Source of the DNA: Bacillota bacterium
GTDB lineage: Bacteria > Bacillota_I > Bacilli_A > RF39 > UBA660
Direction of reading: 5' to 3'
Assembly (NCBI GenBank): GCA_015059485.1
Contig: SVAH01000001.1
Coordinates: forward strand, 1 to 64,000
DNA: 64,000 nucleotides
The notes below the pieces were generated by a model. The model ran no database searches and was not told the DNA's origin. It saw only the letters and a list, made by a program, of their open reading frames with translations. Of the stretch, positions 40,610-41,710 are shown piece after piece; within the stretch, counting starts at the first letter, position 1, and each line of letters begins with the position of its first letter. Position numbers and translations under genes: made by a program.

Positions 40610-40648
40610 TCGTATTAGTTCTAGTTTTGTCTTCAGTTGTCGAAAGCA

Positions 40649-40771: not shown

Positions 40772-40852
40772 ATGAAGAAAGATACAAAAGACACAACACT
40801 TTATAAAATAATTTTTATTTTATTATACATAATTATAAGACTTCTTGGTTAA
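40772..40852 (+). CDS. Candidate type I toxin: 26-residue hydrophobic peptide
   Basis: 26 residues: a charged start MKKDTKDTT, then a single hydrophobic helix YKIIFILLYIIIRLL ending in Gly. The ribosome binding site AAAGGCGG is at normal distance. Part of it is paired: TTACCG (40707-40712) with CGGTAA (40762-40767), supported by the nested helix TAACC/GGTTA (40715-40719 and 40743-40747). A long leader that hides the ribosome binding site, a tiny membrane peptide and a convergent small RNA (40852-40942, minus) form the usual architecture of a type I toxin-antitoxin pair. No named family recognised. An in-frame ATG at 40754 lacks a ribosome binding site. Confidence 0.6.
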   Translation: MKKDTKDTTLYKIIFILLYIIIRLLG

Positions 40853-40942
40853 AATAAAAAACATCTTTCTCTAATCGAGTAAAGATGTTTACTCCCAACT
40901 GGTGGTAAATATCTATCCAAATTGGATATCTGTTTCTCACCT
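40852..40942 (-). ncRNA. Candidate antisense RNA (antitoxin) convergent to the small peptide gene
   Basis: A minus-strand promoter reads TTGTCA, 17 nt, TATCAT with an extended TGT (plus-strand positions 40977-40972 and 40954-40949). The transcript would run from about 40942 to a strong terminator, AAACATCTTT/AAAGATGTTT followed by TTTTTTATTTT, ending about 40852 beside the peptide stop codon. It could pair fully with a 3'-extended toxin mRNA. It also contains TTACCACC, nearly complementary to the toxin ribosome binding region GGCGGTAA. Both RNAs begin with GAGAAACAGA. Confidence 0.55.
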
Positions 40943-40970
40943 AATTAAATGATAACATAAAAATATATAC

Positions 40971-41000
40971 TTGACAAGTACACCTGGGGGGGGGTAAAAT
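40971..41000 (+). promoter_or_regulatory. Promoter with nine-G spacer tract (candidate phase-variable switch)
   Basis: TTGACA (40971-40976), 18-nt spacer ending in nine G (40986-40994), then TAAAAT (40995-41000). Losing one G would give the optimal 17-nt spacing, and gaining one would weaken it. The -35 box overlaps the -35 of the divergent antisense RNA within the palindrome ACTTGACAAGT. A G9 run is striking in such A/T-rich DNA. Confidence 0.75.
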
Positions 41001-41023
41001 AGACTTAGAATAGAGGAATGTAT

Positions 41024-41710
41024 ATGAAAAGAGTGTTTAAAAATCCAACAGTTATGTTTGTACTAGGAGCATTAATATTTTCAAGTATAAGTGTATATGC
41101 AGCAGGAAAGTATTATGCCAAAGATATAGAATATACACCTAAAAATTCCAGTTTTAATGTAGATAATATGGCTGATGCTTTAGATGCATTATATACAAAA
41201 GTAAAACCTGAATATACTGGAGCAACTGAAGTAACTCCAAGCCAATCTAGTCAAACTTTAAATACTAAAGATAAAGCGTTAACAAAGAATATAACAATAA
41301 ATCCAATACCAAATACATATAAAAATTTAACAACTCAAACAAATGCTACAGCTAGTGATATAGTAAGTGGTAAAACTGCTTATGATAATAATGGTAACTT
41401 AATAACTGGTAATTTTTCAGGTACTTGCGTTGAAGGCTCATTTGCATGTACAACATGTTCAACAACTGAAGGACAACAAATACTTGCTTTCAAACCATCG
41501 AAATTTGTTGTTTATGGAACAACAAACTATAAAATTATAATGTTTTATGACGAAAATTTTACTGGAAATAATTTTTGGGTGACACAATCAAATGGTAGCT
41601 ATAATTTTAATGCTCCAATATCTAAATTTATTAAAAATGATAAATTTATTATGAATAGTTCTAGTAGTGATTGGAATAATAAAACTATATATTACATAGC
41701 CTGTCGTTAA
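41024..41710 (+). CDS. Secreted surface protein with phage-tail-like repeat motifs
   Basis: 228 residues from ATG 41024 (GAGGA 6 nt upstream; ATG 41018 is too close). A signal peptide (KRVFKNPTVMFVLGALIFSS, cleavage near VYA) is followed by a spacer and the motif YTGATEVTPSQSSQTLNTKD...NITINPIP, seen in phage tail or baseplate decoration and bacterial surface proteins. Next is GKTAYDNNGNLITG, another such motif. The C-terminal part has three cysteines (CVEGSFACTTC) and a beta-rich domain. There is no LPXTG anchor. Its promoter carries the G9 tract, consistent with on/off switching of a surface molecule. Confidence 0.7.
   Translation: MKRVFKNPTVMFVLGALIFSSISVYAAGKYYAKDIEYTPKNSSFNVDNMADALDALYTKVKPEYTGATEVTPSQSSQTLNTKDKALTKNITINPIPNTYKNLTTQTNATASDIVSGKTAYDNNGNLITGNFSGTCVEGSFACTTCSTTEGQQILAFKPSKFVVYGTTNYKIIMFYDENFTGNNFWVTQSNGSYNFNAPISKFIKNDKFIMNSSSSDWNNKTIYYIACR

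Follow-up and report, generated by a model that had tools for sequence, protein, structure and literature searches.

The window analysed here, a 64,000-nucleotide stretch of DNA, carries a long run of guanines between the two boxes of a recognisable promoter. On the forward strand, a −35 element TTGACA (40971–40976) is followed by the nine bases AGTACACCT, a tract of nine G (40986–40994), proposed as a slippage site, and a −10 element TAAAAT (40995–41000), giving the order TTGACA-AGTACACCT-G9-TAAAAT and a spacer of 18 nt. Re-reading of the coordinates confirmed an earlier note on this DNA, which had placed nine consecutive G between TTGACA and TAAAAT at this distance. A homopolymer located between recognisable −35 and −10 boxes is one of the defining features of a porA-type switch. 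The −35 element is identical across the 11 G-tract copies of the genome, and the −10 elements of the paralogous copies, whose tracts range from G7 to G11, all read TAAAAT or TATAAT. A ribosome-binding site AGAGG lies downstream (41012–41016, forward strand), and the stretch AATAGAGGAATGTATATG around it is conserved among the aligned copies.

The tract stands out against the composition of the window, which has a GC content of 25%. G runs elsewhere reach at most five and C runs at most four, so the earlier description of poly-G as otherwise absent from the window holds. A run of G8 or longer occurs at this single site, against an expectation of 0.02 from dinucleotide shuffles.

The gene behind this promoter (41018–41710, forward strand) encodes a 230-residue protein, predicted to be a surface protein, in which a conserved leader with a signal peptide precedes a variable C-terminal domain. 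Translation likelier starts at the ATG at 41024, given the position of AGAGG at 41012–41016. The leader of the open reading frame is signal-peptide-like, as had been proposed. Alignment of ten products revealed the shared leader SISVYAA.KYYASDITYK..TLD.ALDTLYT followed by divergent remainders, and this leader is present in all full-length paralogues of the genome. The family comprises about 16 members there (16 matches in a profile search), including three genes whose tracts are interrupted. Residues 133–230 (41414–41707, forward strand), the region in which the paralogues differ, are predicted by AlphaFold2 to form a β-sandwich domain (pLDDT about 80 for the domain alone).

Searches of the genome's proteins against Pfam and PHROGs returned nothing convincing, with the PHROG matches falling mostly over a linker or coiled-coil region, and fold searches of the PDB with the C-terminal domain gave no match at E ≤ 0.001. 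A viral structure library yielded a weak top match, a DUF7483 phage protein (E 2.4e-3, probability 1.00). The phage-tail or adhesin-like motifs suggested earlier thus find no counterpart in Pfam, and it is the predicted β-sandwich with its weak structural match to a phage protein that hints at a phage-tail likeness. A phage-borne system was considered and is unlikely (eight IMG/VR matches). Beyond this genome, the protein family has only weak matches among the 97 others searched from the same GTDB family, and a protein-alignment scan of genome contigs gave zero confirmed relatives.

Upstream of the G-tract promoter lies a conserved block that resembles a toxin-antitoxin module. It contains a small hydrophobic open reading frame, MKKDTKDTTLYKIIFILLYIIIRLLG (40772–40852, forward strand), which sits behind a good ribosome-binding site and is a candidate type I toxin; similar frames of 26–28 residues occur upstream of six other copies. 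A candidate convergent antisense RNA (40855–40942, ends approximate, reverse strand) terminates in a hairpin at 40860–40889 with a T run and has a predicted fold of −26.1 kcal/mol. Its putative promoter, TTGTCA-17-TATCAT (40949–40977, reverse strand), diverges from the G-tract promoter, and this pattern is found at seven places in the genome, with zero for the reversed control. The seven module loci are the window copy (40772–40977) and those upstream of L028:12172, L031, L032, L034, L088 and L099. In five of them, the window and four others, the −35 boxes of the two promoters (TTGTCA for the antisense RNA, TTGACA for the surface gene) overlap, and in the remaining two a 10-nt insertion separates them. 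The peptides have no match in NCBIfam and the antisense RNA belongs to no Rfam family; an Rfam search of the window and loci returned tRNAs only. Type I modules of the Fst/par kind combine a small hydrophobic peptide gene, a convergent antisense RNA and a shared terminator region. The module at these seven loci, as read from its sequence, is alike in anatomy. A coupling between the surface switch and the toxin is speculation.

The window tract is one of a set distributed across the genome. A pattern search of both strands of the draft assembly (1.41 Mb, 35 contigs, 74% complete) identified eleven G runs at least seven bases long, and all eleven lie inside −35/−10 spacers upstream of paralogous signal-peptide genes. 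Their lengths are 7, 7, 9, 11 and, in seven cases, 10. Ten of the eleven precede a complete paralogous reading frame, and the remaining gene, on contig C19, is truncated by the contig end just past its start codon. The end of contig C5 breaks off a twelfth tract, while contig C8 opens with a matching TAAAAT and gene start. Three further paralogues are preceded by interrupted tracts, GGGAGTGGG, GGTGGGGTGG and GTGGGGGCAG, the last of which belongs to a dead gene with an in-frame stop. On contig C31, a paralogue is preceded by a different promoter, TTGACAAT-G10-TAGCATGA-TATAAT, in which G10 lies close to the −35 element; apparently this is an independent origin of the same device within the same gene family. 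The tracts are non-random and concentrated at candidate switchable genes, as reflected both in the eleven of eleven here and in the counts across the GTDB family against zero controls.

Several contigs begin or end at such sites. The end of C5 and the starts of C8, C12 and C19 all lie at a G tract or within about 60 bases of one, and the draft genome probably under-represents G-tract loci. The idea that these breaks prove length heterogeneity was rejected: the start of C12 has 77 bp in common with the window copy, so that the break fits a repeat as its cause.

Tract lengths differ between copies with the same surroundings. Within the window genome, six AGTACACCT...TAAAAT copies with identical flanks carry G10 five times and G9 once, which amounts to modest variation inside this genome. 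A wider survey covered 124 listed promoters from 37 genomes, including 13 within-genome groups of identical-flank copies. The commonest tract was 9–10 G, and 33 of 54 identical-flank pairs within one genome differed in the number of G, a variation between paralogues rather than between cells. In one genome, for example, TTGACAAGACCCGTC is followed by G9, G10 or G11 and then TATTAT. Across relatives, tracts range from 7 to 16 G, with lengths read from draft assemblies, in which long tracts may be off by one. The length differences among paralogues may be old. The tract begins anywhere from 0 to 10 nt past the −35 element, and the shared feature is therefore spacing, not a fixed motif.

The spacing itself departs from that of ordinary promoters. 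In the window genome, ordinary TTGACA..TATAAT pairs peak at 17 nt (15 of 30), whereas the spacers of G-tract promoters in this genome and its relatives peak at 19 nt, followed by 18 and 20. The earlier note had assigned strong expression to a 17-nt spacer and weak expression to one of 19. As G-tract spacers cluster at 18–20 nt, and as porA is expressed more highly with 11G than with 10G or 9G, this assignment is not established and is better treated as a hypothesis. One possibility is that the majority state captured in the assembly is mostly weak and that losing a G raises expression; the other is that G-rich spacers have a longer optimum.

The same arrangement recurs widely among relatives. 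Within the same GTDB family, 97 of 386 genomes carry the pattern TTGACA-(0–12)-G7-(0–12)-TANNAT, as do 55 of 150 genera; the reversed pattern, used as a control, gave 0 in every genome. A single genome holds up to 47 matches, overlapping matches being tallied separately. Across the class, an eight-G version matches 26 of 247 genomes, again with a control of 0. A scan of GTDB r220 with one genome per species returned at least 119 stretches. Most of those listed belong to uncultured Bacilli and Clostridia of the gut, and further ones come from Saccharibacteria, Candidatus Ancillula, Streptobacillus, Helicobacter and Treponema. TTGACA..G9..TATAAT was seen in Streptobacillus notomytis (twice in one stretch), a Helicobacter, Treponema ruminis and a Saccharibacteria genome (L158, L169, L142 and L102).

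This distribution does not follow a gene family. A family carrying the mechanism across genera was considered and rejected, the window protein family being nearly confined to the window genome. The genes downstream of G-tract promoters are unrelated between genera and mostly encode predicted surface proteins. An N-terminal hydrophobic segment is found in 71 of 81 downstream proteins from other genera, compared with 19 of 51 window open reading frames of at least 150 residues (Fisher p about 2e-9). Their Pfam domains include Gp10_C baseplate domains (7), BspA leucine-rich repeats (5), prepilin motifs (4), camelysin-like domains of the camelysin/TasA-like type (3) and UDP-galactopyranose mutase (2), together with bacterial sugar transferase, TupA-like ATP-grasp and IspD-type cytidylyltransferase domains. 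Leaders thus point to a surface location for most products by prediction, with glycan-synthesis genes among the remainder. Genes that are unrelated but linked by theme to the surface or the cell envelope have thus acquired one and the same promoter device. At six loci (L066, L268, L271, L270, L062 and L070), all in other genera, the genes behind G-tract promoters encode a small protein that by eye is YukD/EsaB-like, a TupA-like ATP-grasp protein, a sugar transferase, UDP-galactopyranose mutase and an IspD-type cytidylyltransferase.

Phase variation by slippage within the spacer tract, as proposed in the earlier note, is the best reading of these observations, given the location of all eleven tracts, the differing G numbers of identical-flank copies and the recurrence in 97 of 386 genomes. 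We put the probability at roughly 87% that slippage in promoter spacers phase-varies the surface repertoire gene by gene, as in Neisseria porA. The G9 tract would serve as a hypermutable spacer within a promoter of the sigma-70/sigma-A type. Gain or loss of G by replication slippage would shift both the distance and the rotation between the −35 and −10 elements, and this altered geometry would turn transcription of the downstream surface-protein gene up or down. With at least eleven such switches before scattered paralogues, a clonal population could comprise many combinations of displayed surface proteins. The mechanism presumes that length changes at a high rate within one lineage, that spacing sets expression and that the products reside at the cell surface, all of which we infer. 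The benefit would presumably be evasion of phage or host antibody, or altered adhesion.

The tract might instead be a fixed promoter feature, such as a regulator site or a DNA-shape element, whose length changes infrequently. This alternative draws on the orientation of the tracts, in which G is always on the coding strand: a poly-C version of the pattern gave one match in 117 genomes (G000–G116), where the poly-G version gave 148, a figure summed by hand in which some tracts are counted more than once. Such strict preference is not required by slippage alone, and it may owe something to G residues adjoining the −10 element or to the behaviour of G-rich non-template DNA. The clustering of spacers at 18–20 nt likewise suggests a constrained length. 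However, a binding site would be expected to keep both its position and its length, and here the tract moves by up to 10 nt, spans 7 to 16 G and is unequal in copies with identical flanks; nor would a regulator site need an uninterrupted homopolymer. A moving tract with such length differences is what one would expect if slippage occurs and selection acts on spacing, and not what a fixed binding site would produce, which leaves the fixed feature improbable. The strict coding-strand preference is in itself a new and testable fact.

The tracts could also be relics, multiplied together with the gene family and carried along without switching. Segmental duplication is certain from the upstream blocks common to many copies, and decay is visible in some tracts and in one broken gene. 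Yet pure G runs of this length, if unselected, should decay fast at 25% GC, and duplication does not account for the independent tract in the C31 promoter or for the unrelated genes of other genera that gained the same arrangement; we regard this explanation as very improbable. Least probable of all, to the point of being barely credible, is that the tracts are assembly artefacts. Such sequence data are known to be weak at homopolymers (PMC4235727), and contig ends often fall at or near tracts (C5, C8, C12 and C19), so the exact number of G may be unreliable. The tracts themselves, however, are read through at 11 loci here and at hundreds in independent genomes, in the same promoter context and with controls of 0.

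Spacer slippage as the preferred reading has precedents. In N. meningitidis porA, a poly-G tract between the −35 and −10 elements has been experimentally shown to act as a phase switch, with expression in the order 11G > 10G > 9G, 11G being the longest tract tested (PMC3639595). Both systems place a coding-strand poly-G of about 9–11 G in the promoter spacer of a surface protein. Whereas porA is a single gene of an unrelated organism encoding an unrelated protein, about a dozen paralogues each have their own tract here. The closest repertoire is that of spma in Mycoplasma agalactiae, a low-GC relative in the broad sense, whose poly-G tracts reach 13 G and number eight in strain 5632; its transcription control is described as unknown, and the role of the tract was left open (PMC2824730). 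There, too, poly-G lies 5′ of each gene of a surface family with a homologous leader. However, the spma genes are clustered and their tract was not placed in a −35/−10 spacer, in contrast to the scattered genes and explicit spacer position observed here. In the hif fimbriae of Haemophilus influenzae, a change in repeat number alters −35/−10 spacing (PMC3899988), but the repeat is a TA dinucleotide in one divergent promoter rather than poly-G in many. A report on Bifidobacterium breve describes ON/OFF slippage of a pilus, a surface-structure switch in a gut commensal (PMC9187656), which concerns another organism and another surface structure. The mechanism is already known; a literature search that covered few subscription papers returned no account of this system or of its deployment across the genome in this lineage.

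What is known of phase variation through slippage in promoter spacers comes mainly from cultured pathogens, and the present case concerns an uncultured lineage. Its scale is notable, with about a dozen switches in one genome and the device present in roughly one in four of the family genomes sampled. If the reading is correct, the population of one strain would be a mix of surface types, with consequences for phage resistance, host recognition and the reading of draft genomes of these bacteria. The natural promoter variants are also available for testing the effects of spacer length and G-rich spacers on transcription. A more far-reaching version, which we consider doubtful, would see a general surface-variation system across this family of uncultured bacteria with small genomes, in which one unrelated gene after another has recruited a poly-G spacer, the G invariably on the coding strand and the optimum shifted to about 19 nt. 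Some of its switches would share a −35 element with the antisense promoter of the toxin-antitoxin-like module, so that switching could alter toxin balance.

The repertoire of the window genome also includes a copy outside this arrangement. A family member on contig C9 (L098, about 652–1176) has neither the start of the leader nor a promoter and is possibly a silent cassette. It sits after a terminator and the repeat GTCRTATTAGTTCTAGTTTTGTC, which also occurs in the window at 40610–40632.
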